Positions 12,529 to 23,088 of a stretch of DNA of 28,254 bases are shown here, piece by piece. Every line of letters starts with the position of its first letter. Position 1 is the first letter of the stretch. A program made the position numbers and the translations under genes. This stretch comes from a virus, in the IMG/VR virus record IMGVR_UViG_3300048928_000183, positions 1 through 28,254 of that record; one strand, 5' to 3'. Under the pieces are notes generated by a model. The model ran no database searches, was not told the DNA's origin, and saw nothing but the letters and a program-made list of their open reading frames with translations.

Positions 12529-13197
12529 CTAATCATGGACGGACAGCAAACTTGTCAGGATTGCTAAACGCTCGACGCTGCTTAAAGCTGAGTAGTTGGC
12601 TTTCCATCGCTCGGCTTTACGTTTAATCCTTTGTCGTTCCTGATAGTTGCTACCGACGAAAGTAGCGCAATATGCATCACCTTCCGTAAAATTCATCCAG
12701 AGCTGTTCCGTCCTTACACCTCCACGGGTCATTACCTGGAAACGGATGCTGCGCCAATCTGCCAAAAGGGAATCGTAAAGCTCAGACGGATAACCGGAAA
12801 TCATGACAGCAGCCGGTATTTTTTTTAGAGTTTTAATCAGTTCAATATGATTTTCGCGGGTGTATTCATGTCGGTAGCGCGCCGAACTGGTACGTGTTTC
12901 TGCCAGGTAAGGCGGATCCACGTATAACAACGGGGATTTGTACGGGGAAAAATCAAAGGTATCTAAAAAACTGAGGATGTCAGTGTTAACCAATTGGACA
13001 TCATCACCGAATTTTTCCGCAGCACACGCCAGGGTAATGGGATCAATATCGACACCAATATTCACCGGAGCTGCCGGTTTGCGTGCCATGACTGCGCCGC
13101 CGCCCAGGTGCGTTTCAATGTATAAATCATGCGGTGGCATTTGGCTGATAATTGCCTGATAGGCACCACTTGCGGCCTTGCTTCCTAAATATCCCAC
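12529..13197 (-). CDS. D12-class DNA adenine methyltransferase (222 aa)
   Basis: Motif IV DPPY is at 94-97 (LLYVDPPYLAETRTSSARY). The SAM-binding motif I region is ETHLGGGAVM (29-37), preceded by MGYLGSK. This fits the D12-class N6-adenine methylases that are shorter than Dam. The target site cannot be read from the sequence. It stands apart from the early operon: gene A ends 95 bp upstream and two 18-bp palindromes fill that gap, so it probably has its own regulated promoter. Its start lies 27 bp past the first palindrome. Possible roles: protection from restriction or regulation by methylation. It is distinct from the Dam-like enzyme at 15837-16703. Confidence 0.9.
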   Translation of the reverse strand: MGYLGSKAASGAYQAIISQMPPHDLYIETHLGGGAVMARKPAAPVNIGVDIDPITLACAAEKFGDDVQLVNTDILSFLDTFDFSPYKSPLLYVDPPYLAETRTSSARYRHEYTRENHIELIKTLKKIPAAVMISGYPSELYDSLLADWRSIRFQVMTRGGVRTEQLWMNFTEGDAYCATFVGSNYQERQRIKRKAERWKANYSALSSVERLAILTSLLSVHD

Positions 13198-13291: not shown

Positions 13292-15535
13292 TCATTCAAA
13301 TTCAGCCCAGTCCGGCAGCGGTTCAAAACTCATCACCAGATCACCAAAGCTGACTTTCGCCCCACGGCTTAATGCTTCTAGCTCCCAACGCTCCGCAGTG
13401 ATGCTGTGTTTCATCAATTCGCGCTCAATTTCAGGCAGGCGCGCCCGTTCTTCTCTCGTCAATCTTGCCGACGGGGCAACATCACGCCCTTTTGTTGGGT
13501 CAAAACTTCGCTGTGCCTTGCTAACTCGCGGTGTTTCTTCCCGTATGCGTGCCACAATCGCTCTCACGGCGGCTGTGTCTGTCCAGTCAATAACCCGCAG
13601 GTTGTTGGAATTGGATGCTGTAAGGTCGCTCCCAGCCTGGCTATCACGCCTATTTGCAGCCGGTTTATTTCCACCTAACCCACAGTTATTGACAGGACTC
13701 CGAGGCGCGCCGGAGGCGCTTTTTAAGGTCAAAACCTCAACGTCAACAGCGGAAGAAACGATGCGCCATTGAGTTGTACGGGTTTCATAAACGCGGGAGT
13801 CGCCGAGGTGAGGCGCAAAAATACCCACAACCTTTTTCACTTCTTCATCGTAGGCATTCAACTCGTCAGCAACGCGGCGGGCTACGCGCACAGTCTGATC
13901 GTCGCGAGGCACATTTGCACCGCCCTGGGCTGACATGTACGCCATAAAGTTACCGGCATCAGCCGCAGCGCGAACGGCTTCCACTTCTTCGTCAAAGGTT
14001 TCAGACAGACTGATGGAGCGGATACGGCGACACTCACGGTATGAACCCATGGTAGGCAGGCCGATAGGGCGAAACTGAGGAATGCGCCAGGTAGCAGCCC
14101 AGGCCGTAACAGCGGCGGCGGAATCTGTTAGTAGCTCGCCGGTTTCGTGGTCGCGCTCGCCTTCCAGCGCGTAGCCGTCGATGTTTTTTGCGATGTATTT
14201 GGCAATATAGCCAGCCGCGCCGCCACGGTTCAGGTGCTTACAGTCAAAGCGATTTTTAGCAGCGCCGCGCTCGTCACCGTCTTCTTTCATAGCGTATTTA
14301 CGCATGATATCGATCACCGGCTGACGCATGGCGGGCTTAGTGAATAACATCATGTGCCAGTGCGGCGTCGCGTCATGGTGTGGTTCCACTACCCGCATAC
14401 CGTATACAGACAAATCATTATCTTTAAACGCGGTGCGCATTTTGCTCCAGATCCCGCACAGATAACGCTGCGCATCTTTCGGGGTAAAGGCTTCCTTGTC
14501 CCAGGAGTGATTCCGCTGAACGCGTTTTTTATCGCCCTTGCCGACCATGCGGGTCGGGTGATATTTGGAAGGGGTGGTGATGGTCAGGAACATCCCGACG
14601 TCGCCATTTGCGGCAGCATATTTTTCGGTGCCGGCGATCGTGCTCATTAACTCCATACGGCGGATTTCAGGGTTTGAAATGCTCGCCATCACTTTGTCGA
14701 TCAGACTGAAACGCTCGCCGGTTTCGATGTTCTCCAGGTCGCAGCTTTTCAGGTAGTCGAGATTCGACAGGCGGCGCGCACGTACTTCACGAATAGCCTG
14801 CTTACTGGCATATGGGGAGGCGTCGCGGTTTACCTTGCCGATGGCGATCAGCAAAGACTCACGCCAACGGGTGCGCTGGCCTTTCAACTGACTTAACCAC
14901 CAATCCGGATTAACCAGACGTGACATACCGGCGATTGCGGAAACCGCATCTAATTTACCTTTGCAGTATTTCTTCCAGTACATCGGCGTGACGTTGAAAG
15001 CGCGAGCCATTCCGGCGATTTCACCGTATAGGTGGCCTTGCGTGAAAGCTGAGAAAAGCGCTGTATTATCTCCGCCGTTTTCTTCCAGCAATTGATCGCA
15101 ATAGTCTTCATAGATTTCTTTCAGTTGTCCGGCGATATCCTGCGCGAACCGGCGCAGCGGTTTGTCGCTCATGCTCGGCAGGCCATGATAGGTGTCTGCC
15201 TCAGACATGAATTTTATGGAAGCATGAAGATTCATTTCATGCGCTGAATTGACTGCATCCACACGCGGCAGAATGCTGCGCCCAAGGGTATAAACCAGAT
15301 ATTTATTTGCGGCGTGGATGCCCTGGGTTTTCAGCAGATGCGCATAGCGGCCTGTGAAAATTTCTCGCAGGTCGGTAGAGAGGTTTTTTACTCTGATTAA
15401 AACAGCTTGCCCCTGATCGTATTCATCACGGGTAAGCGGTCTTTCCAGGCCAGAAACGGCCTGGCGTGGTTTGTTCCAGGAAAACGCCCAAGCTGCGGGC
15501 GTTTCAATTTGCGGAGTGAAGCGGCTGGTCTGCAT
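13292..15535 (-). CDS. A: Replication initiation endonuclease gpA
   Basis: 747 aa (P2 gpA 761). The rolling-circle HUH motif is PHWHMML (H392, H394), and the paired catalytic tyrosines are in GYIAKYIAKN (Y443, Y447), equivalent to Y450/Y454 of P2. The gpA family blocks continue through GLPTMGSYRECRRI. It nicks its own coding sequence at the origin (13689-13709) and joins to the 5' end to start rolling-circle replication using host Rep helicase. The start overlaps the stop of the DUF3850 gene (TAATG). Last gene of the leftward early operon before the palindromes. Confidence 0.96.
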   Translation of the reverse strand: MQTSRFTPQIETPAAWAFSWNKPRQAVSGLERPLTRDEYDQGQAVLIRVKNLSTDLREIFTGRYAHLLKTQGIHAANKYLVYTLGRSILPRVDAVNSAHEMNLHASIKFMSEADTYHGLPSMSDKPLRRFAQDIAGQLKEIYEDYCDQLLEENGGDNTALFSAFTQGHLYGEIAGMARAFNVTPMYWKKYCKGKLDAVSAIAGMSRLVNPDWWLSQLKGQRTRWRESLLIAIGKVNRDASPYASKQAIREVRARRLSNLDYLKSCDLENIETGERFSLIDKVMASISNPEIRRMELMSTIAGTEKYAAANGDVGMFLTITTPSKYHPTRMVGKGDKKRVQRNHSWDKEAFTPKDAQRYLCGIWSKMRTAFKDNDLSVYGMRVVEPHHDATPHWHMMLFTKPAMRQPVIDIMRKYAMKEDGDERGAAKNRFDCKHLNRGGAAGYIAKYIAKNIDGYALEGERDHETGELLTDSAAAVTAWAATWRIPQFRPIGLPTMGSYRECRRIRSISLSETFDEEVEAVRAAADAGNFMAYMSAQGGANVPRDDQTVRVARRVADELNAYDEEVKKVVGIFAPHLGDSRVYETRTTQWRIVSSAVDVEVLTLKSASGAPRSPVNNCGLGGNKPAANRRDSQAGSDLTASNSNNLRVIDWTDTAAVRAIVARIREETPRVSKAQRSFDPTKGRDVAPSARLTREERARLPEIERELMKHSITAERWELEALSRGAKVSFGDLVMSFEPLPDWAEFE
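13689..13709 (-). other. ori: P2-type replication origin (ori nick region)
   Basis: On the minus strand the 21 bp start CGCGCCTCGGAGTCCTGTCA and add one A. As far as I recall this is identical to the P2 origin where gpA nicks, and likewise lies inside the 3' part of gene A. It is flanked by a GC-rich inverted element (GCGCCTCCGGCGCG, about 13702-13718), which could form a hairpin. The codons here give SGAPRSPVNNC in a variable linker of gpA, so the DNA sequence rather than the protein seems to be conserved. Confidence 0.85.
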
Positions 15536-15837
15536 TACTTAGAAGACCCGCCAGGGCGTGCTACTGGGAAACACTTCAGAGATGGCAGATCAATACTCAG
15601 AAGCACATACCCAGGTGCATACTCAGTGACATTCGCAATATGCTGAATTATGACGACACAGGAGCGCCCCGTGTAACTACCCAAATTATCTTCACCGCGC
15701 ACCCATTCTTTCAAAATAATGGAATCACCCACCTGATAGTCATGGTCATTTTTTCGCAACTCCGCCTTTTTGACGCCACTACATACCGCACTGAAATATT
15801 CCGGTAGTATTTTTAATTCATGAGTCAAATAAGTCAT
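15535..15837 (-). CDS. DUF3850 (ASCH-like) protein
   Basis: 100 aa. LTHELKILPEYFSAVCSGVKKAELRKND, YQVGDSIILKEW and YTGRSCVVIIQHI form the DUF3850 pattern, an ASCH/PUA-like small fold thought to bind RNA or modified nucleotides. It starts on the Dam stop (TAATG) and its stop overlaps the gene A start (TAATG), so it is translationally coupled on both sides. Role unknown; a small regulator of early mRNA is one possibility. Confidence 0.85.
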   Translation of the reverse strand: MTYLTHELKILPEYFSAVCSGVKKAELRKNDHDYQVGDSIILKEWVRGEDNLGSYTGRSCVVIIQHIANVTEYAPGYVLLSIDLPSLKCFPVARPGGSSK

Positions 15838-16703
15838 TATTCAGCCCCTTCGGTTTCTTCTTCACGAACCAGAGGAAGGTATTGCGGATTTTCTGGTGTG
15901 AGTTTGGCGATGATTTCAGGGGCTGTTTTGATACTGCCAGCAGCAGCACCAACGGAGCGCGGAGCATCAAACGCAGTAATATCAAATTTACCGTAAAGGC
16001 CACGCGCTTCGCGGGTGTCTGAATTTGATGCGATCACTGGATAGCTGCGCTCAGCCAGTGCGAGCAAGTTCGCACTCAGTTGCTCATGTTCAAGCTTGCC
16101 AAAACAGGCGGGAGCATAGCCTGTGAAATTTGCGGAGGTAGACGCAGGCAGGTAAGGCGGATCACAATAAATAACGTCACCAGGCTGAACCATTGTCAGG
16201 GCTTCATCAAAAGAGCAGCAGATGAAAGTTGCCCGCTTCGCTTTTTCGGCGAACGCACGGATCTCGGCTTCGGGGAAATAGACTTTTTTATATTTCCCAT
16301 ATGGAGTATTAAAATCACCGCTAAGGTTATAACGACATAATCCGTTATAACAATGACGATTCAAATAAAGAAAAAGAACCGCGTGCGTAAAAAGGCAGGA
16401 TGGATTTAAATTAAAGGCATGCCGGACTTCATAATAAGTAGTTTCAATGTTAGCTACTTTGAAAAACTCCTTTGCACCAAATATAAATTCTTCTGGCTCT
16501 TTTTTAATAATGTTATACATGTTGATTAAATCAACATTAATATCTGAAATCAGATATTCGTCATAATCGGTATTCATCATTACAGCACAGGAACCCGCAA
16601 ACGGCTCAACCAACCGACGACCTACTGGCAGATGTTGTTTTAAAATATCCATGATGCGGACTTTAGAACCCGCCCATTTCAGCATAGTGCGCATTTGTTC
16701 CAT
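15837..16703 (-). CDS. dam: Dam-like DNA adenine methyltransferase
   Basis: 288 aa. D12-class N6-adenine methylase of Dam type: LKWAGSK (8-14) and EPFAGSCAVM (33-42, SAM binding), YLISDIN, FLYLNRHCYNGLCRYN, and DPPY at 181-184. Similarity to Dam suggests GATC methylation, which P2-family early regions often encode in this position. Preceded by TraR-like protein after a 79-bp gap. With the second methylase at 12529 the phage encodes two adenine methylases, presumably with different sites. More AT-rich around 16300-16600 than flanking genes. Confidence 0.93.
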   Translation of the reverse strand: MEQMRTMLKWAGSKVRIMDILKQHLPVGRRLVEPFAGSCAVMMNTDYDEYLISDINVDLINMYNIIKKEPEEFIFGAKEFFKVANIETTYYEVRHAFNLNPSCLFTHAVLFLYLNRHCYNGLCRYNLSGDFNTPYGKYKKVYFPEAEIRAFAEKAKRATFICCSFDEALTMVQPGDVIYCDPPYLPASTSANFTGYAPACFGKLEHEQLSANLLALAERSYPVIASNSDTREARGLYGKFDITAFDAPRSVGAAAGSIKTAPEIIAKLTPENPQYLPLVREEETEGAE

Positions 16704-16782: not shown

Positions 16783-17007
16783 TCATTGGTTTTCTCGATA
16801 ATGTTTGGCATTGAGTTCAGCAAGTTCTTTGCAGTACACGCACAGCTCAACACCTGGCAGAGCTGCGCGGCGTTCTTCGGGAATAGGTCGGTCACAGTCC
16901 AGGCAGAACATGGCAGAAACACCCGCAACAGGGGCGCGGGCGGCTTGGATTTGTGCAGCCAGAATCAGGTCTGCGCGTTCCTGGGCGGTATCAATGACAT
17001 CAGCCAT
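16783..17007 (-). CDS. TraR/DksA-family zinc finger protein
   Basis: 74 aa. Four cysteines in C35-x2-C38 and C56-x2-C59 (FCLDC ... LCVYC) with an N-terminal helix starting MADVIDTAQERAD, the layout of short TraR/DksA proteins such as P2 orf82. These bind in the RNA polymerase secondary channel and change transcription in a DksA/ppGpp-like way. Start overlaps the upstream gene's stop by 8 nt. Confidence 0.93.
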   Translation of the reverse strand: MADVIDTAQERADLILAAQIQAARAPVAGVSAMFCLDCDRPIPEERRAALPGVELCVYCKELAELNAKHYRENQ

Positions 17008-17341
17008 GTGACACCTCCGGCTGTTGCAGTTTTACCAGGGCAGCAAATACCAGATCAGCAGCGCGGTTGTACTCATTGCGCATTGATGCCGCGCTGGTGA
17101 TTTTCTTAGCCCATATAGCGCGATCAACACAGCGATTGATGAATTCGGTAGCGAGGGAAAACCTCAACTGAAACACAGCCAGCGTGGAGCAATACTGTGT
17201 ACGGGTTTCTTTATCCGTCTTGATTTCAGCCAGAATCAGGTCGCCGTTCTTTTTAGGGATGATGGTGAACGCCAGATCGATATCAATGCGCTTTGCCATT
17301 GCTTCCGCCATTTCTGGCGTGGCTTCTTCATGTTTCATCAT
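17000..17341 (-). CDS. Early-region hypothetical protein (DUF5405-like)
   Basis: 113 aa, starts MMKHEEATPEMAEAMAKRID. The central block LAFTIIPKKNGDLILAEIKTDKET followed by helices recalls the DUF5405 family found in P2-like early operons, but the match is from memory and moderate. No membrane segment or cysteine motif. Start touches the stop of the DUF2732 gene and the end overlaps the TraR-like gene. Function unknown. Confidence 0.8.
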   Translation of the reverse strand: MMKHEEATPEMAEAMAKRIDIDLAFTIIPKKNGDLILAEIKTDKETRTQYCSTLAVFQLRFSLATEFINRCVDRAIWAKKITSAASMRNEYNRAADLVFAALVKLQQPEVSHG

Positions 17342-17619
17342 TAGTGCAGGTCTCCCGCTTCATTTTGAATGCGGATGGCTTCCTGGCGTAATGCTTCGGC
17401 AGCTTCGATTCCGGTCATTTCTTTTTGGATGATGAAACATGCGATAGCTTCCAGGCGGGAGGCAAACACCTGCGCACGATTGCCACGTTCTTCATTACGT
17501 GCAGCATTGAGCATTAAGGTCAGCTCACCGGTGTAATCACCCTCAGCCGAACCCATATCAAAACCGACAACAGGCAAACCAGCAAAGCCGATTCGGGATT
17601 TATTAATCATTTCTTTCAT
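17341..17619 (-). CDS. DUF2732-family early protein
   Basis: 92 aa. The segment ARNEERGNRAQVFASRLEAIA...EAAEALRQEA is the DUF2732 signature seen in P2/186 early genes. Likely all-helical in its second half. Good ribosome site (AGGAG, about 8 nt). A GGGCA-AAAAAA-TGCCC hairpin sits in the 67-bp gap upstream (17640-17655). Function unknown. Confidence 0.87.
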   Translation of the reverse strand: MKEMINKSRIGFAGLPVVGFDMGSAEGDYTGELTLMLNAARNEERGNRAQVFASRLEAIACFIIQKEMTGIEAAEALRQEAIRIQNEAGDLH

Positions 17620-17686
17620 GTATAAAACTCCTGTTTTTGGGCAAAAAAATGCCCGGCGGGTTTACGCCTATTAATTTGAATTCGGG

Positions 17687-17995
17687 TTAGTGCTTAATAT
17701 TTATTCTGCAATCATCTTCACTGATAAATTTCGGCAGGGTCTCAGTTAATCCCAGTAAAGAATTTAGCGCCGCAACCACTTGACGCCTTTCAGTCGGCGT
17801 TAATTCTGCAAACTTCATTTCAACATGGCGGCTTTTCAGGCCAGCATGAAAGCAGATTGTTTTACGCATATGCAGCGGCTGACTATCAAATGTTTCCTGC
17901 GCTACATTCTTTTTGTGTTCCAACATCTCTTTAATTTTAGAAAGATGCTTTTTGCCTATCTGAATATGTTCTTCATTTCCTAAAAACATAAACAC
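17687..17995 (-). CDS. Early-region hypothetical protein (102 aa)
   Basis: 102 aa starting MFMFLGNEEHIQIGK, with GAGGTG 3-4 nt before the ATG. Lysine-rich helix at 15-32, then MRKTICFHAGLKSRHVEMKF and a helix LTPTERRQVVAALNSLLGL. I do not recognise the family; by position it corresponds to the small genes after fil in phage 186 (CP78-CP79 region). Cytoplasmic and basic to neutral. Starts one base after the stop of the Fil-like ORF. Confidence 0.78.
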   Translation of the reverse strand: MFMFLGNEEHIQIGKKHLSKIKEMLEHKKNVAQETFDSQPLHMRKTICFHAGLKSRHVEMKFAELTPTERRQVVAALNSLLGLTETLPKFISEDDCRINIKH

Positions 17996-17996
17996 C

Positions 17997-18167
17997 TCAA
18001 CTAAACAGGCGCTTTAAAAGCGGCTTTGAATTTCTCACCGCCTGCGGGGCAGTGGCTTTTGATAATGAAGGACTCCAGCGCTTTCCACCTGGCAGCTCAA
18101 TGCAACCATGGCCGAAATGGCGTGAAGGGCTTTGCTGTTTTAGCAGCGGAGCAATTGAGATCACCAT
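17997..18167 (-). CDS. Fil-like small early protein (56 aa)
   Basis: 56 codons from ATG 18167, 2 bp after the CII stop, to a stop at 17997-17999, 1 bp before the next gene: it exactly fills the gap. The block LLKQQSPSRHFGHGCIELPGGKRW resembles the phage filamentation protein Fil family, and in phage 186 fil directly follows cII. The C-terminus is basic (KPLLKRLFS). Fil causes host filamentation and delays cell division when expressed in 186. Family call is from memory and position. Confidence 0.72.
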   Translation of the reverse strand: MVISIAPLLKQQSPSRHFGHGCIELPGGKRWSPSLSKATAPQAVRNSKPLLKRLFS

Positions 18168-18169
18168 GT

Positions 18170-18676
18170 TTAGACCATCCCGTTAGTGGCAACACTTGCG
18201 ACAGCACCAACAACAGAGGCCAGAGCGGGTGAAGCTTCTACGCGCCCCTGCATCGCTAAGCCGATTAGCGAAAGATGGCGAATGCCTGCATTCACACTTT
18301 CGATAATTGAGTTTTTAACCTGACGTGTCTGCCGTTCCGGCGATGCCGCACCCGCAGCAACTGAACCCAGGGCAGCAGTGGCGTGAAGTGTGTAGGTAGC
18401 AATATTGTCCTCGGCCAACTCATTTACCGGTACGGCAGGCATACATTTCATCTGTGCCAGCAGCCCATCGATCAGAGTTGGGTCTTCGGTGACATCCGTG
18501 ATCACGGCAATTTCAATGACGGTGAGCTGATGCACCTGATCGGGATTCAGCTTGTTACGCAGGGTCTGTTCTTTCATTCCAATAGTGCGAGCCAGTTTTG
18601 ACAGGTTGTGACGAACTGAAAAAGCGCGGCATGCGTTATCAAAATGCGGCTGGTTGGAAACCTGGAAATCAAACAT
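18170..18676 (-). CDS. Phage regulatory protein of the CII (CP76) family
   Basis: 168 aa with a strong ribosome site (AAGGAG). The N-terminal HTH-like part is FSVRHNLSKLARTIGMKEQTLRNKLNPDQ (about 19-47), followed by LTVIEIAVITDVTEDPTLIDGLLAQ; the hydrophobic Ala-rich C-terminus (ASPALASVVGAVASVAT) is typical of the CP76/186 CII group, which also holds similar P2 early proteins. In 186, CII establishes lysogeny by activating a promoter for cI; the same place in P2 holds replication gene B. Which role applies here is unresolved. Confidence 0.88.
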   Translation of the reverse strand: MFDFQVSNQPHFDNACRAFSVRHNLSKLARTIGMKEQTLRNKLNPDQVHQLTVIEIAVITDVTEDPTLIDGLLAQMKCMPAVPVNELAEDNIATYTLHATAALGSVAAGAASPERQTRQVKNSIIESVNAGIRHLSLIGLAMQGRVEASPALASVVGAVASVATNGMV

Positions 18677-18730
18677 GTTTACTCCTTAAAACTCACTTAA
18701 TGTGAATACATGTTGAAATTTGCAAACTGG

Positions 18731-18955
18731 TTACGCGCCAACGTATTTGCAATTAAGACCCTGCTGCAATAAACGAGCACGGAAGGCGACCATGTTGATA
18801 CGGGCGGCACCGCCTTCTTTTTGACGTGGTGCCAGAAGTAACTCACCGTCGGCCGCCATACGCTTCACGCTTGAAAGGCTATATCCATATTGAAAGGCAA
18901 ACTCCTCATAAGTCATCAGCTCTTTGCCTGACGGGATTGCAATTTGATTGTTCAT
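18731..18955 (-). CDS. Cox/Apl-like excisionase and early repressor
   Basis: 74 aa. LMTYEEFAFQYGYSLSSVKRMAADGELLLAPRQKEGGAARINMVAFRARLL has the winged-helix pattern of P2 Cox (PYQEFAKLIGKS... RAGEY... LPAW) and 186 Apl. It is the first gene of the leftward early operon, divergent from the CI repressor, as expected. Cox-type proteins repress the lysogenic promoter and direct excision at attP. No strong ribosome site is visible close to the ATG (GGAG about 11 nt upstream). Confidence 0.83.
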   Translation of the reverse strand: MNNQIAIPSGKELMTYEEFAFQYGYSLSSVKRMAADGELLLAPRQKEGGAARINMVAFRARLLQQGLNCKYVGA

Positions 18956-19019
18956 CTATCATGATCTCCGGTTAACAGTGTTTTTGGTGTCACCTCGTTC
19001 CACGCGAGATGATTTTGCT

Positions 19020-19048
19020 AATTTAGATCACTTTATGGGTTTTGTAAA
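19020..19048 (-). promoter_or_regulatory. Leftward early lytic promoter
   Basis: On the minus strand TTTACA (19048-19043), 17 bp, then TAAATT (19025-19020): five and four matches to the -35 and -10 consensus at ideal spacing, about 60 bp before the Cox/Apl-like start. The -35 lies inside the palindrome 19035-19054, as expected of a repressor-controlled lytic promoter. Confidence 0.65.
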
Positions 19049-19054
19049 ACTCAT
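19035..19054. promoter_or_regulatory. Operator-like palindrome in the immunity region
   Basis: ATG-g-GTTTT-gt-AAAAC-t-CAT: a 20-bp inverted repeat with 8 of 9 arm positions paired, overlapping the -35 of the leftward promoter and lying 23 bp before the CI start. Probably a CI or Cox binding site. A short GGTGTCACC palindrome is at about 18987-18995 in the same gap. Confidence 0.6.
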
Positions 19055-19077
19055 ATTTGTAATTCCATGGAGGCGTA

Positions 19078-19959
19078 ATGTCGCCAATTACTCATGATGC
19101 TAGGCAAGTTCTTGAAAGAATTCTGTTTTCATATGGCATAACAACACAAAAAGAGCTTAGCGAATTGCTTGGTTTACCCTCCAGCAACATTAGTAACTGG
19201 ATGCAACGCGGAAGTATTCCAGGAAATGTGATCATAAATTGCGCTTTGGCAACCGGTACCGACCTTCAATGGTTAGTCACGGGAGAGTTTGCAGATTCAA
19301 ATCAGAACTCTTCAGAAGAGCAAGCCGGTCTATCCAAATCCAATGTCAGCGGGAAAAAGCTATACGATCTGATTTTGGCTTCAGGTGGAAAGGAAGCGAT
19401 AAATAGAATTTTGAGAGCGCATGGTTTCTCGATGCAGAAAGAACTTGGCGAGCGTTATGGCTTATCACCCGGCACTATTAGCACCTGGATTAGACGCGAT
19501 TTTTTCCCCGCCGAGGTTGTGATTGCTACTGCATTAGATACCCAGGCGTCTCTGCGTTGGCTTGCAACCGGCACCGGTAAAATGCGCACCGGAACTGTTG
19601 CCAATACCAGCACTGATTCTGAGTGCGATGATATTCCGCAGATTAAAAGAATGTCACTTATAGATGGCACCCTTATTGATGCCGGTATTTGCAAAATGGA
19701 TCCGTTCTTTCTTGAAGGTGAAATTATTGAAGCCGTTCATTTGGTTAAGGGGTCAATGTCATGGTTAGTGGATTTTGGCAATCAAAACGGCGGTAATGGT
19801 CGATGGCTATTAAATATTGATGGGGAGCTAGATATATATGATGTTGCCCGTATCCCTGGAAATAAACTTAGCGTCAATGGCCTAACAATAAACTTTGAAT
19901 GCAATATCAATGATGTTGAATTTAGAGGCAAGGTTTTATCAACAACCATTAGAAATTAA
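19078..19959 (+). CDS. CI-type repressor with two tandem HTH domains
   Basis: 293 aa; the start has GGAGG 4 nt upstream. Residues 11-71 (VLERILFSYG...QWLVTGEF) and 107-167 (AINRILRAHG...RWLATGTG) are two copies of the CI-repressor N-terminal HTH domain, identical at about 26 of 61 positions without gaps. Residues 188-293 match the 186 CI C-terminal oligomerisation domain (IKRMSLIDGTLID, GRWLLNIDGELDIYDVARIPGNKLSV, INFECNINDVEFRGKV). 186 CI has one such HTH and 192 aa, so this protein has an extra DNA-binding unit of about 100 aa. It should maintain lysogeny by repressing the divergent early promoter. No Ala/Cys-Gly LexA-type cleavage site is evident, consistent with control by an antirepressor. 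Confidence 0.93.
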   Translation: MSPITHDARQVLERILFSYGITTQKELSELLGLPSSNISNWMQRGSIPGNVIINCALATGTDLQWLVTGEFADSNQNSSEEQAGLSKSNVSGKKLYDLILASGGKEAINRILRAHGFSMQKELGERYGLSPGTISTWIRRDFFPAEVVIATALDTQASLRWLATGTGKMRTGTVANTSTDSECDDIPQIKRMSLIDGTLIDAGICKMDPFFLEGEIIEAVHLVKGSMSWLVDFGNQNGGNGRWLLNIDGELDIYDVARIPGNKLSVNGLTINFECNINDVEFRGKVLSTTIRN

Positions 19960-19994
19960 AAATAATTCCTAAATTACAATCCACAGGAGCATTA

Positions 19995-20396
19995 ATGAAA
20001 AGGAAAGTAGCAGCATTACTGTTTTTCACAGCATTTACCGCATCAGCCGCACCATCTCATAACGTGGCTAAGTTGCAGAAATCGCTTAATTCGTGGCAGC
20101 CACTTTCAATAATTGAAGATAACAATGTTATTACAATTACCATGAAAGAAGCTCAAATCACCCCTGAATTTTACGACATGATTGCACCTAATGGAGTTTG
20201 TTCAGCACTATGGATGGATTCCCCAAAAAGCACCTTATTCCAAGGCATCAAAGAGATTCGCGTACTTAATAAATTCAATGCTTTTGGTTACGTCCTGGAA
20301 ACACCACGCGCTATATGCGACGAAGCTGGTAAAGCACAACCTAAAGAATCTAAAGTATTAATCCTATCTAAAACACGTTTGTTCATGGGTAAATAG
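19995..20396 (+). CDS. Secreted hypothetical protein, lysogenic cargo
   Basis: 133 aa. N-terminal signal peptide MKRKVAALLFFTAFTASAAP with a likely cleavage after ASA. The mature domain has two cysteines (GVCSAL and RAICDE), which may form a disulphide in the periplasm. Ribosome site CAGGAG, start 36 bp after the CI stop, so it is probably co-transcribed with the repressor and expressed in the lysogen. AT-rich. No family recognised. A hairpin GCCTCC-N10-GGAGGC follows at about 20405-20426. Confidence 0.82.
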   Translation: MKRKVAALLFFTAFTASAAPSHNVAKLQKSLNSWQPLSIIEDNNVITITMKEAQITPEFYDMIAPNGVCSALWMDSPKSTLFQGIKEIRVLNKFNAFGYVLETPRAICDEAGKAQPKESKVLILSKTRLFMGK

Positions 20397-20403
20397 TAAA
20401 GTT

Positions 20404-20427
20404 GGCCTCCGGTTACTGCTGGAGGCT
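20404..20427 (+). terminator. Possible weak terminator after the secreted-protein gene
   Basis: GGCCTCC-ggttactgct-GGAGGCTC forms a 6-7 bp GC-rich stem between the secreted-protein gene and int. It lacks a T-run, so at most it reduces read-through into int. Confidence 0.35.
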
Positions 20428-20496
20428 CATATCTCATAGTCATTAAGCCATTCTCATTTAGACATATATCAAATTGCTCACAGTGGTGAATATATA

Positions 20497-21528
20497 ATGG
20501 TCGTAAAAAAATTGCCTACCGGTGAATGGCAAACTGATTTCTATCCATCAGGGCGTGACGGTAAACGTATCCGCAAGGCGTTCCCGACGAAAGGTGAGGC
20601 CATTGCTTTTGAAAGCTTCACCATCAAAGAGGCAGAGGAAAAACCCTGGAAAGGTGAGAAAGCCGACACCCGCCGTTTAAGTGTCCTGGTCAAGCTATGG
20701 AATGATTTACACGGACAGTCACTTACTGCCTCAAAGTCGCGGCTTGCTAAGCTCAATATCATAGTGAACGGCCTGGGTGATCCTGTCGCGGCTCAAATAA
20801 CAACTAAAAGCTGGGCGCATTACCGCGAACAAAGGCTGAAAGGTAAGATCGATAACGGTTATCACAAAGACAAAGCGAAATGGAAGGCTAAGCCAATCAC
20901 GGTCAACCGTGAACATCAGTATCTCTATGCTGTGTTTAATGAGCTGAAACGCCTGGGGGAATGGAAGGGCGCGAACCCGTTAGACGGTATACGCATTTTT
21001 AAAGAAGAAGACAAGGAAATGAGCTGGCTGACAAAAACTCAGATCCGCCAGCTTTTGAATGCCTGCGAACGTTATGGGAAAGAGCATTTAACTCGCATTG
21101 TCAAGATTTGCCTGGCGACAGGTGCCCGCTGGACAGAAGCAAACAACCTTACACGCTCCCAACTTTCTCCCAATAAACTCACGTTTTATAAAACCAAGGG
21201 GAAGAAAAACCGAACCGTTCCGATCCCGCAATGGCTTTATGATGAGCTGGAACCGCTGTCCGGCCAGTTCTCAAAACCGTGTTATCAGGAGTTTAAGAAA
21301 GCATTGGCACTGACTGACATAGAACTTTCAGAAGGCCAAATGACACACGTTTTACGTCATACCTTTGGTGCACATTTTATGATTAATGGCGGCAATATTT
21401 TGGTGCTTCAGAAGGTATTAGGTCATGCAAATATCAGGGAAACTATGAGATATGCGCATTTTGCCCCTGACCACTTGGAGCAAGCCGTCACACTCAGCCC
21501 CTTATCAAATATCAAAGATTTCCAATGA
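20497..21528 (+). CDS. int: P2-type tyrosine integrase
   Basis: 343 aa (P2 Int 337). N-terminus MVVKKLPTGEWQTDFYPSGRDGKRIRKAF is the arm-binding domain, with a core-binding region about 60-165. The catalytic set is complete: R211 (TGARWTEA), K234 (KTKGKK), H284 and R287 (HVLRH), H310 (LGHANI) and nucleophile Y319 (MRYAHF). It integrates the phage at attB using attP, which starts at its own stop codon. No strong ribosome site precedes the ATG (GGTG 11-12 nt upstream), which may keep Int low. Confidence 0.97.
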   Translation: MVVKKLPTGEWQTDFYPSGRDGKRIRKAFPTKGEAIAFESFTIKEAEEKPWKGEKADTRRLSVLVKLWNDLHGQSLTASKSRLAKLNIIVNGLGDPVAAQITTKSWAHYREQRLKGKIDNGYHKDKAKWKAKPITVNREHQYLYAVFNELKRLGEWKGANPLDGIRIFKEEDKEMSWLTKTQIRQLLNACERYGKEHLTRIVKICLATGARWTEANNLTRSQLSPNKLTFYKTKGKKNRTVPIPQWLYDELEPLSGQFSKPCYQEFKKALALTDIELSEGQMTHVLRHTFGAHFMINGGNILVLQKVLGHANIRETMRYAHFAPDHLEQAVTLSPLSNIKDFQ

Positions 21529-21752
21529 CTACAAATTGACTACACAGCTTGTTTCAGGTGACATCAGGTGACACCAGAGAGAGGGATAACTAACTGAAAA
21601 ATAAAAAATATCCTTATTAATCAATGGGCTATATTAAGAGCGTCTTAACTAAGGTATCGCTAACGCGACATCTACTAGTTAATATAGAACAAGGGGTTAG
21701 CCATCGGCTAACCCCTTTTTTTACATCAGTGACTACAAAATGGCTACGCAGT
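21526..21752. other. attP: attP region with flanking Int arm repeats
   Basis: Two 23-bp direct repeats, starting TGACTACAAA and ending CTAC(A/G)CAG, lie at 21526-21548 and 21730-21752, with 19 of 23 identical; each has an internal 11-bp-spaced GACTACA/GGCTACG pair. CAGGTGACA is repeated at 21555-21563 and 21565-21573, one helical turn apart. A perfect 9-bp inverted repeat CTATATTAA/TTAATATAG (21629-21637, 21679-21687) brackets a central segment that probably holds the core. These fit the arm and core sites of a P2-type attP between int and ogr. The core itself cannot be fixed without attB. The left repeat begins on the int stop codon and the right one covers the ogr stop. Confidence 0.75.
21691..21722 (+). 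terminator. Strong intrinsic terminator after int
   Basis: AAGGGGTTAGCC-ATC-GGCTAACCCCTT: a perfect 12-bp stem with a 3-nt loop, running into a T-run ending at 21722. It ends the rightward cI-int transcript inside attP. On the minus strand the stem ends in TTGTTC, so termination of ogr read-through would be weaker. Confidence 0.92.
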
Positions 21753-21923
21753 GGCAGGTTGGCTACCCGGTTTTGAGATAACCCGGGCGACTGATTCATG
21801 CGTCGCAAAAGTACAACTGCATTTGATATTCTGGCACTGATGATAGCGTTCCTTGGTCGATTCACTCAGATAGCGGCTCGAACGCGTATGGGCTACTTTT
21901 CCGCAAAGTGGACAATGCATCAT
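21744..21923 (-). CDS. ogr: Late transcription activator Ogr/Delta
   Basis: 59 aa from ATG 21923 (GGAGG 5 nt upstream); P2 Ogr has 72. Zinc-binding cysteines C4, C7, C30 and C35 (HCPLC ... CQNIKC) and the block SRYLSESTKERYHQCQN are diagnostic. It binds late promoter dyads and recruits RNA polymerase through the alpha subunit. The C-terminus is about 13 residues shorter than in P2, and the stop codon lies inside the right attP arm repeat. Confidence 0.94.
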   Translation of the reverse strand: MMHCPLCGKVAHTRSSRYLSESTKERYHQCQNIKCSCTFATHESVARVISKPGSQPATA

Positions 21924-21969
21924 AAAAACCTCCGGCATAACAGGTAAGCGATGAGGTAATTATGAACTC

Positions 21970-21991
21970 ATAACTCGCAAAAGCAAGTTAT
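21970..21991. terminator. Hairpin at the D-ogr junction
   Basis: ATAACTCGC-AAAA-GCAAGTTAT, a 9-bp arm repeat with one mismatch covering the gpD stop codon. It may attenuate transcription from the tail operon into ogr. TTGCTT at 21983-21978 (minus) with TAATTA 18 bp on could be a separate weak ogr promoter; both readings are tentative. Confidence 0.4.
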
Positions 21992-23088
21992 AATTGCAAA
22001 ATTGAAGACTGATAAGTGATATCTGCAACATAAGGTTTCAGAATCAATTTAGTAGTAAAACCTTTCTCATTAATCTCATGCAGAGCGGAATCAATCACCC
22101 AGCGCTGACTGTCGATCACGTCTTTAAACCCTTGCACATTGACCGGAGATTGCGCACTCAAATCAGCACGTCCCAGGGCCAGCCGTATGCTGAATGTTGC
22201 GGCATCATTCTGAATCTGATTGAACACTGAATCCGCAGCCCGCTTAGCAGTCTCTTCGTCAGGAAATATTTTGCCCAGTTCAAGAACATTTGTCCCGGAT
22301 CCCGCGATGTAACTGGCAGGCTGGGCTTCTTTGCCTTCTGCGGGCGAACGCTTGAGAGCAACATTGCTGGTGGTCGCCGTTTTGAGATCATGCCACTGCG
22401 CCTTCACGCCATCGTATGCCTTCTTATCGACCATCTGATAGTTGTGGTTATCGCCGTCACTGCGGACAATGGTTTTCCAGGGGATTGCTTGTCCGGAAGA
22501 GGTTCGACCGGTGCCTGCTTTAAAAAATAAAATTGCGCCGTTTTTAACCGTTACCTGCGCACCGTAACGTTGTGCCAGCCGGGTGAGAAAGTAGCTGTCC
22601 GTTTCGCTGGTCTGGTCAATATGCGGGATCTTAACGCTATCAAGTTCCTGCGGGATTACTGGCAGATCTAATTTATTCCGGCTTGAAATGATTCTGACAA
22701 TCGCGCCGAGCGTGTAATCATCGTAAGACTGGCTGATTTTGTTATCAAAGGAACCGCGGAAATCTGCGCTGCGGGCAACCACACCTATTTTGTCCGGAGA
22801 GCCGGAATGAGTGACTGTATCGACCGTGAAATAGCCGCAGTCATAGAGCGCCTGTTTCGACCACCCCAGATGCAGATGTAAAACGGTGCCGCGAACGGGC
22901 ATTTGCAATTGCCCGTCGCTGTCATCGAAGGTTAAATTCAAGGTGTCTGCGGTAAAACCGCTGTTATCCGTGACAGATAAACTGATGATCCGAGCAGAGA
23001 TATTTTCTTCCAGCACCTTATTTTTTATCGTCAGCGTGAATGCGGGTGCGATGCGAGCCCCCACGGGTAACTGAAGATCAGTAAGCAT
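21988..23088 (-). CDS. D: Tail hub / late control protein gpD
   Basis: 366 aa (P2 gpD 387). Blocks: PAFTLTIKNK, LTFDDSDGQLQMPVRG, LGWSKQALYDCGYFTVDTV, DSYFLTRLAQRYGAQVTVKNG and AKRAADSVFNQIQNDAATFSIRLALGRADL. Member of the phage late control gene D / tail hub family (gp27-like) that joins tube and spike. Last gene of the FI-D tail operon, 2 bp after gpU. Confidence 0.96.
   Translation of the reverse strand: MLTDLQLPVGARIAPAFTLTIKNKVLEENISARIISLSVTDNSGFTADTLNLTFDDSDGQLQMPVRGTVLHLHLGWSKQALYDCGYFTVDTVTHSGSPDKIGVVARSADFRGSFDNKISQSYDDYTLGAIVRIISSRNKLDLPVIPQELDSVKIPHIDQTSETDSYFLTRLAQRYGAQVTVKNGAILFFKAGTGRTSSGQAIPWKTIVRSDGDNHNYQMVDKKAYDGVKAQWHDLKTATTSNVALKRSPAEGKEAQPASYIAGSGTNVLELGKIFPDEETAKRAADSVFNQIQNDAATFSIRLALGRADLSAQSPVNVQGFKDVIDSQRWVIDSALHEINEKGFTTKLILKPYVADITYQSSILQL

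Follow-up and report, generated by a model that had tools for sequence, protein, structure and literature searches.

A phage CI-type repressor with two helix-turn-helix domains per subunit and a possible division of operators between them

Results

The cI locus and its neighbourhood

The window, by which we mean the whole stretch of 28,254 nucleotides of viral DNA analysed here (IMG/VR record IMGVR_UViG_3300048928_000183), carries on its plus strand a cI repressor gene at 19078-19959, assigned to the transcriptional repressors of phrog_4, whose open reading frame starts with ATG, encodes 293 amino acids and contains zero internal stops. Divergent from it on the minus strand lie a gene for a cox/apl-like excisionase-regulator (18731-18955; phrog_575, E 6.1e-17) and cII (18170-18676; PF06892, Phage_CP76, 137 bits), and downstream of it follow a phrog_3807 open reading frame (19995-20396) and the integrase gene (20497-21528). 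The gene neighbours of cI match the P2-like switch. Elsewhere in the window, proteins matching D12-class adenine methyltransferases are encoded at 15837-16703 (strong match) and 12529-13197 (weak match), a DUF3850/ASCH protein (15535-15837) adjoins the methyltransferase, and a calcineurin-like phosphoesterase (1680-2387) is found in the structural-gene half.

Domain architecture of the repressor

The protein is built as HTH1, linker, HTH2, linker and C-terminal domain. HTH1 comprises residues 10-70 (19105-19287, plus strand) with the recognition helix PSSNISNW, and HTH2 residues 106-170 in whole-protein numbering (19393-19587, plus strand) with the helix SPGTISTW. Scanned alone, the two parts matched PF07022 (Phage_CI_repr) with 71.6 and 78.5 bits, respectively, and the whole protein reached 144.5 bits over two stretches (curated cut-off 22), while residues 188-286 (19639-19935, plus strand) matched PF16452 (Phage_CI_C) with 73.4 bits (cut-off 27). 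Both families that define a 186-type CI, the N-terminal PF07022 and the C-terminal PF16452, are thus present, but the protein departs from the 186 pattern in having two HTHs per subunit, not one. An earlier note, made from this DNA alone, had described two consecutive HTHs before one 186-type C-terminal domain, and this description was borne out, including the point that the second HTH is genuine. Its further particulars were also correct, namely the quoted recognition-helix segments of both copies, which agree with the translated frame, the identity of about 26 in 61 residues, and the length of 293 residues against 192 for 186 CI (coding sequence L211 1465-2043; here and below, L numbers designate the loci compared). 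The 26/61 identity was recovered by BLASTP at E 3e-17, and the likeness of HTH1 and HTH2 is therefore beyond chance.

An AlphaFold2 model calculated from a 19-sequence alignment (mean pLDDT 77.7, pTM 0.39) shows two separate multi-helix domains, whose helices fall within residues 8-68 and 92-164, and a beta-rich, mostly confident C-terminal domain; the linkers, at 73-90 and 168-184, are of low confidence. In the PDB the model is closest to 186 CI and a lambda-186 hybrid repressor, and the C-terminal domain was matched by Foldseek to 2fkd_A (E 1.1e-10). In the alignment used for the model the window CI is divergent, sharing 40-53% identity with the 18 other proteins.

Distribution and phylogeny of two-headed repressors

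A tblastn search of 50,697 phage records matched the window CI in 133 of them, and the best ten alignments, at 46-49% identity, span 95-97% of it. Two narrower searches returned nothing: an exact-pattern scan of genome contigs with the window protein alone as query gave zero relatives, and megablast of window positions 17000-22000 against phages gave zero matches. Pfam found two PF07022 stretches in each of the CIs of PSP3, RCIP0057, Midge, ST437-OXA245phi4.2 and 4LV2017, so that the fusion is indeed shared by other phages; our own HMM found two HTHs also in SI22, SEN1, 613R3 and the E. coli prophage protein WP_000041620.1. Across 225 loci plus the window, the same HMM detected two HTHs in 178 of 227 matching open reading frames, a set which was gathered with two-headed queries and holds duplicates, and whose ratio is not a frequency. 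The named genome records with two-headed proteins include those of Dickeya, Lonsdalea, Pectobacterium, Rahnella, Buttiauxella, Enterobacter, Citrobacter and Kosakonia. The view of the earlier note that no phage repressor of this form had been described is therefore not supported, since PSP3 CI and many P2-like prophages carry two HTHs; the architecture is not new and already stands in the PSP3 record. Within the open-licence literature we found no published description of the two-headed form or of the role of the duplication, nor a published account assigning heads to operators.

In the HTH-domain tree, the HTH1 sequences of 45 PSP3-type representatives, the window included, form a single clade with a support of 0.994. 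HTH2 and the HTH2-type domains of single-HTH proteins form a single group, with a support of only 0.496, and the HTH2 of the window falls inside it. By architecture and tree position, the window is assigned to the PSP3-type two-headed subfamily as defined here.

A second group of two-HTH proteins was seen in L004 (3037-3972), L005 (2926-3867) and L127, which are Klebsiella phages and a related genome; in this group both recognition helices are nearly alike, and it clusters with the Fels-2-type single-HTH proteins. In L126 (Lonsdalea iberica) the two-headed cI is split over two open frames by a break in HTH2, which represents either a decayed copy or a sequencing error.

The operator at the lytic promoter

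All operator comparisons were based on the 45 PSP3-type representatives (L004, L005 and L127 were left out), with cI start codons guessed by script. For the pR palindrome 42 were kept, L094 and L098 being excluded for a poor promoter anchor and L093 for its short stretch. In these 42 an ACTTTA-N17-TGTAAA-like element lies on the plus strand 23-44 bp before cI, and therefore reads as a promoter pointing away from cI. The corresponding predicted lytic promoter pR of the window occupies 19020-19048 on the minus strand, with the -35 element TTTACA at 19048-19043, a 17-nt spacer and the -10 element TAAATT at 19025-19020. Promoter scanning of the window gave 1 promoter against 1.1 expected by shuffle, which is weak taken alone; the element is, however, at the same place as in the anchored alignment of the subfamily.

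As in the subfamily, a palindrome is centred on the -35 element of the window, at 19035-19054. This putative pR operator, ATGGGTTTT-GT-AAAACTCAT, is the best palindrome (10 pairs) between -450 and +300 of cI; over 11 arm pairs it matches at 9, a value reached by a fraction of 0.0053 of arm shuffles. It emerged only from the anchored comparison, a short-repeat search of window positions 18900-19110 having given nothing at the settings used. Among the 42 representatives the arms vary between phages and match within each phage, with a mean of 7.14 of 11 pairs, against a mean of 5.74 (sd 0.21) when arms are swapped between phages; the own-phage mean was reached in 0 of 10000 permutations, which were as free as the data in giving each phage one of four centres. 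The strength of the palindrome is uneven, with 10/11 pairs in six representatives and at most 5/11, below the permuted mean, in 14 of the 42, among them the PSP3 cluster (L030, L053, L062, L101, L173). With a fixed centre, the symmetry of pR is modest (best z 3.9).

A GATC at window 19026-19029, beside the -10 element, recurs by eye in many two-headed and several single-HTH phages. As a candidate HTH2 half-site near the -10 of pR it was set aside, as single-HTH phages carry GATC too.

Sites flanking pR

A second type of site came from loci whose only HTH is of the HTH2 type, L111-L124 (Rahnella, Ewingella and relatives) and L217 (E. coli). In 15/15 of them the palindrome CTYG-N6-CRAG is located 53-54 bp before cI. 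In two-headed phages this strict motif was found near pR in 0/48, and the search was therefore turned to the flanks, by using a matrix built from the 15 single-HTH loci alone (10 distinct sequences; threshold 9 bits). Sites of at least 9 bits are present in 38/45 two-headed phages at a place inside cI, which we call FL (40 shuffles: mean 0.48, maximum 2), and in 24/45 at a place between cox and cII, called FR (40 shuffles: mean 1.38, maximum 3). At pR of the same phages the matrix reached 9 bits in 2/45, which is the chance level (shuffle mean 1.58, maximum 5), and among 28 other loci with one HTH (186, Fels-2, HP1 and similar) its matches numbered 0 at FL, 0 at FR and 1 at pR. A 9-bit FL is missing in 7/45 phages and a 9-bit FR in 21/45; several phages under this threshold have palindromes of shifted sequence, such as ATTCGAATAATCGAAT. 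In the Klebsiella-type group of 4LV2017 and ST437-OXA245phi4.2 the PSP3-type flanking motif was not found. In the cox region, from -340 to -150 of cI, the matrix matched in 6/45 phages (shuffle mean 1.5, maximum 5).

The FL-like sites lie about 194-227 bp inside cI and the FR-like sites about 370-530 bp upstream, before cII. These places resemble those of FL (+269 to +285 of cI) and FR (-409 to -393) in 186, which are annotated CI sites. When the FL codons were recoded synonymously into the same peptides (500 sets), 9 bits were reached in a mean of 6.6/45 phages and in 14/45 at most, against the 38/45 found, so that the DNA of FL itself seems constrained.

In the window, the putative inner flanking site is GTTTGCAGATTCAAAT (19287-19302), at +209 of cI, in the codons just past HTH1, an offset shared with many relatives. 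With the matrix from the other phages it ranks 11 of 28239 window positions; its score of 5.8 is under the family threshold of 9 and is reached by 4.4% of synonymous recodings. The loose pattern to which it conforms occurs 7 times in the window against 10.9 expected, and is thus not enriched there. The site has T:A at position 2, as have those of other phages with Pro or Thr at the corresponding helix residue. At the FR place, the window is without an HTH2-type site and has instead a 186-like palindrome: TTCACATTAAGTGAG (18692-18706, minus strand), between cox and cII and positioned as in relatives, is a candidate outer flanking site with 1 mismatch to the 186 FL sequence. It is the sole window match to 186 FL at up to 3 mismatches, a tolerance at which 0.72 are expected.

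Covariation of heads and sites

The covariation between sites and recognition helices was analysed by partial Mantel tests in 41 representatives, with the other HTH residues and the C-terminal domain as controls. The window was also left out of this set and of the residue comparison below, since its FR is not HTH2-type; in both, the FR of L016 was taken by eye, those of L068 and L090 from matrix matches, and for the FL of L196 the +217 match was used and not the higher-scoring one at +243. With full controls pR followed HTH1 (0.328, p 0.0002) but showed no association with HTH2 (0.013, p 0.36), whereas FL followed HTH2 (0.316, p 0.0002) without association with HTH1 (0.028, p 0.29), and so did FR (0.208, p 0.004 for HTH2; -0.026, p 0.69 for HTH1). 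The two flanking sites correlate (FR with FL, 0.237, p 0.0006), and neither does so with pR (-0.029 and -0.023, respectively). Seen from the codons of HTH2, FR is more distant than HTH1 and pR, so that linkage alone would predict the reverse of the association found. Without controls every pair of site and head is correlated, an outcome expected from shared ancestry, and some cross terms persist when fewer controls are applied (pR with HTH2 given HTH1, 0.127, p 0.0055; FL with HTH1 given HTH2, 0.217, p 0.0005); the tests remove shared ancestry only in part.

A single residue of HTH2 accompanies a single base pair of its sites. In the 29 phages with Ser as residue 2 of the HTH2 helix, C:G occupies position 2 of the half-site in a mean of 2.52 of 4, against 0.08 of 4 in the 12 phages with Thr, Ala or Pro, a difference reached in 0 of 20000 permutations. 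The direction is the same in 4/4 HTH1 classes occurring with both HTH2 classes, and such pairings, for example L100 against L065, L200 and L210, amount to natural domain swaps. In L032 and L194, the two phages with MSA-type helices, half-site position 5 is A in 3/4 arms each.

The rule was upheld in a hold-out of 36 unique proteins, less than 90% identical to the earlier ones and fetched with queries selected on HTH2 class, whose sites were called after masking matrix positions 1 and 2 in both halves and thus blind to position 2. FL was called in 35/36 and FR in 32/35, and C:G was found in 0/66 half-sites of Thr phages and 43/68 of Ser phages; the training set of this calling gave C:G at 0/36 half-sites for Pro and 0/58 for Thr. 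One low-scoring sequence, GTTTGGAAACGCGATA, accounts for eight of the FR calls of the hold-out and is probably not the FR site; leaving these out, the counts become 0/56 and 43/62. The exceptions, which combine SSGTISTW with T:A sites, are L050 and L072 in the training set and L294, L295, L298 and L307 in the hold-out. In the latter, 16 of the 25 Ser misses come from five phages of the HTH1 class PSNNVSAW, the class of L050 and L072. The suggestion of the earlier note that the two heads may read different sequences is thus supported by comparison in the relatives, through the covariation and through the residue and base rule.

Discussion

Taken as a whole, the explanation that we regard as probable is that the window CI serves a P2-like phage of the 186/PSP3 type as immunity repressor and that each of its subunits has two different heads for reading DNA. 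It would be a bifunctional repressor, quite likely with HTH1 on pR and HTH2 on the flanking sites, and probably bridging them. HTH1 would bind the operator over the lytic promoter and set the specificity of immunity, and HTH2 would bind the palindromes flanking pR, the FL-like one inside cI and the FR-like one just before cII. One complex could then hold pR and a flanking site together, which may lead to stronger repression and possibly to an effect on cII expression. Such bridging appears likely, given that the two heads share a chain with flexible linkers and an oligomerising 186-type tail, and the bridging of operators that the earlier note had proposed becomes plausible since the predicted sites of the heads lie at different operators. 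The note had supposed that this might happen without the large oligomer of 186 CI; the window CI keeps a C-terminal domain of the 186 type. Binding, bridges or loops and an effect on regulation are inferred here from sequence comparison, as is the likeness of the window to its relatives in these respects.

The loci L111-L124 and L217, whose proteins are nested in the HTH2 group, have the flanking motif in the pR region; they look as if HTH1 had been lost and the motif had moved to pR. The presence of the HTH2 motif at pR of these Rahnella-type proteins without HTH1 fits the same logic of divided labour.

One alternative, which we judge unlikely, is a single long pR operator on which the two heads take adjacent half-sites, four per dimer. 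Outer matching arms do occur at some pR, such as CTATAGAT-N33-ATCTATAG in the PSP3 relatives L030 and L101 (paired by eye), and at one centre the outer pairs show a small excess of own over cross matches (3.62 against 3.13, z 2.4); at the best inner centre, however, this excess is absent (3.31 against 3.25). The two-domain repressor of a mycobacteriophage provides a precedent, reading one contiguous asymmetric site (PMC9283540). Nevertheless, the HTH2-type motif, though enriched at the flanks, is no commoner at pR than expected by chance, and the fully controlled correlation of pR with HTH2 falls to 0.013, even though it is 0.127 (p 0.0055) with fewer controls.

A little less probable still is that the flanking motif is bound by CII or Cox/Apl and that HTH2 has a role other than DNA binding, such as protein contacts or the binding of an antirepressor. 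The FR place does adjoin the start of cII, and the conservation of HTH2, whose recognition helices differ by a pairwise mean of 0.22 against 0.50 for HTH1, would also suit a structural role. Against this, in all the 15 loci whose only HTH is HTH2-type the palindrome in front of cI is this very motif, it covaries with the recognition residues of HTH2, and both flanking places are annotated in 186 as CI sites. Finally, a neutral duplication, with one head binding and the other decaying or merely adding avidity, is very improbable: one head can suffice, as the single-HTH prophage repressors (L111-L124, L217) indicate, but both heads have full PF07022 scores, HTH1 is an old clade of its own and each head covaries with its own DNA site.

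If the heads of this repressor are divided between pR and the flanks, the division would explain why the duplicated head lasted in many enterobacterial prophages. We lean slightly towards a further step, in which one head evolves freely for immunity at pR while the second keeps the conserved flanking operators, so that immunity specificity and long-range contact would be independent of each other and could be swapped by recombination; such exchange is suggested by the way in which HTH1 and HTH2 classes are combined in nature. Immunity could then diverge without rebuilding the long-range contacts, and the phages would provide a natural switch, made of separable parts, in which the contribution of looping could be tested. 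The residue and base rule makes part of an operator predictable from the protein sequence.

Comparison with known systems

CI of phage 186, reportedly studied by Dodd and Egan, by Pinkett and by Wang, has the same HTH and C-terminal families as the window CI, and 186 has an annotated CI operator at pR with flanking FL and FR. In contrast with the window CI, it has one HTH in 192 residues, and its single head must read pR as well as FL and FR. PMC8053113 describes 186 CI as using distal sites in vivo and forming loops in vitro, with a wheel-like 14-mer as its oligomer, and an in vivo loopometer assay of looping from FL to pR as inconclusive.

The CIs of the Klebsiella phages 4LV2017 and ST437-OXA245phi4.2 (313 and 311 residues) have two PF07022 domains and PF16452 like the window CI, with which they share 27-29% identity; their HTHs group with the Fels-2-type singles, which points to a separate origin. 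Outside the repressors, lambda integrase has two DNA-binding domains of arm-type and core-type specificity and bridges separate sites, but it is a recombinase with folds unrelated to those of the window CI. The nearest published two-domain phage repressor that we found in the open-licence literature is the immunity repressor of the mycobacteriophage TipsytheTRex, which, according to PMC9283540, has two independent DNA-binding domains like the window CI but is a monomer, with an HTH and a stoperator domain on one asymmetric site.

Closest among known phages is PSP3, a Salmonella phage of the genus Eganvirus, whose CI (AAN08403.1, 286 residues) is annotated only as immunity repressor. It consists of two PF07022 domains and PF16452 like the window CI, to which it is 46% identical (alignment A1), and the gene order is the same: cII, a small divergent regulator gene, cI, a small open reading frame and integrase. 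The two proteins differ in the recognition helix of HTH1 and in the sequence of pR, and in HTH2 PSP3 has SSGTISTW where the window has SPGTISTW.
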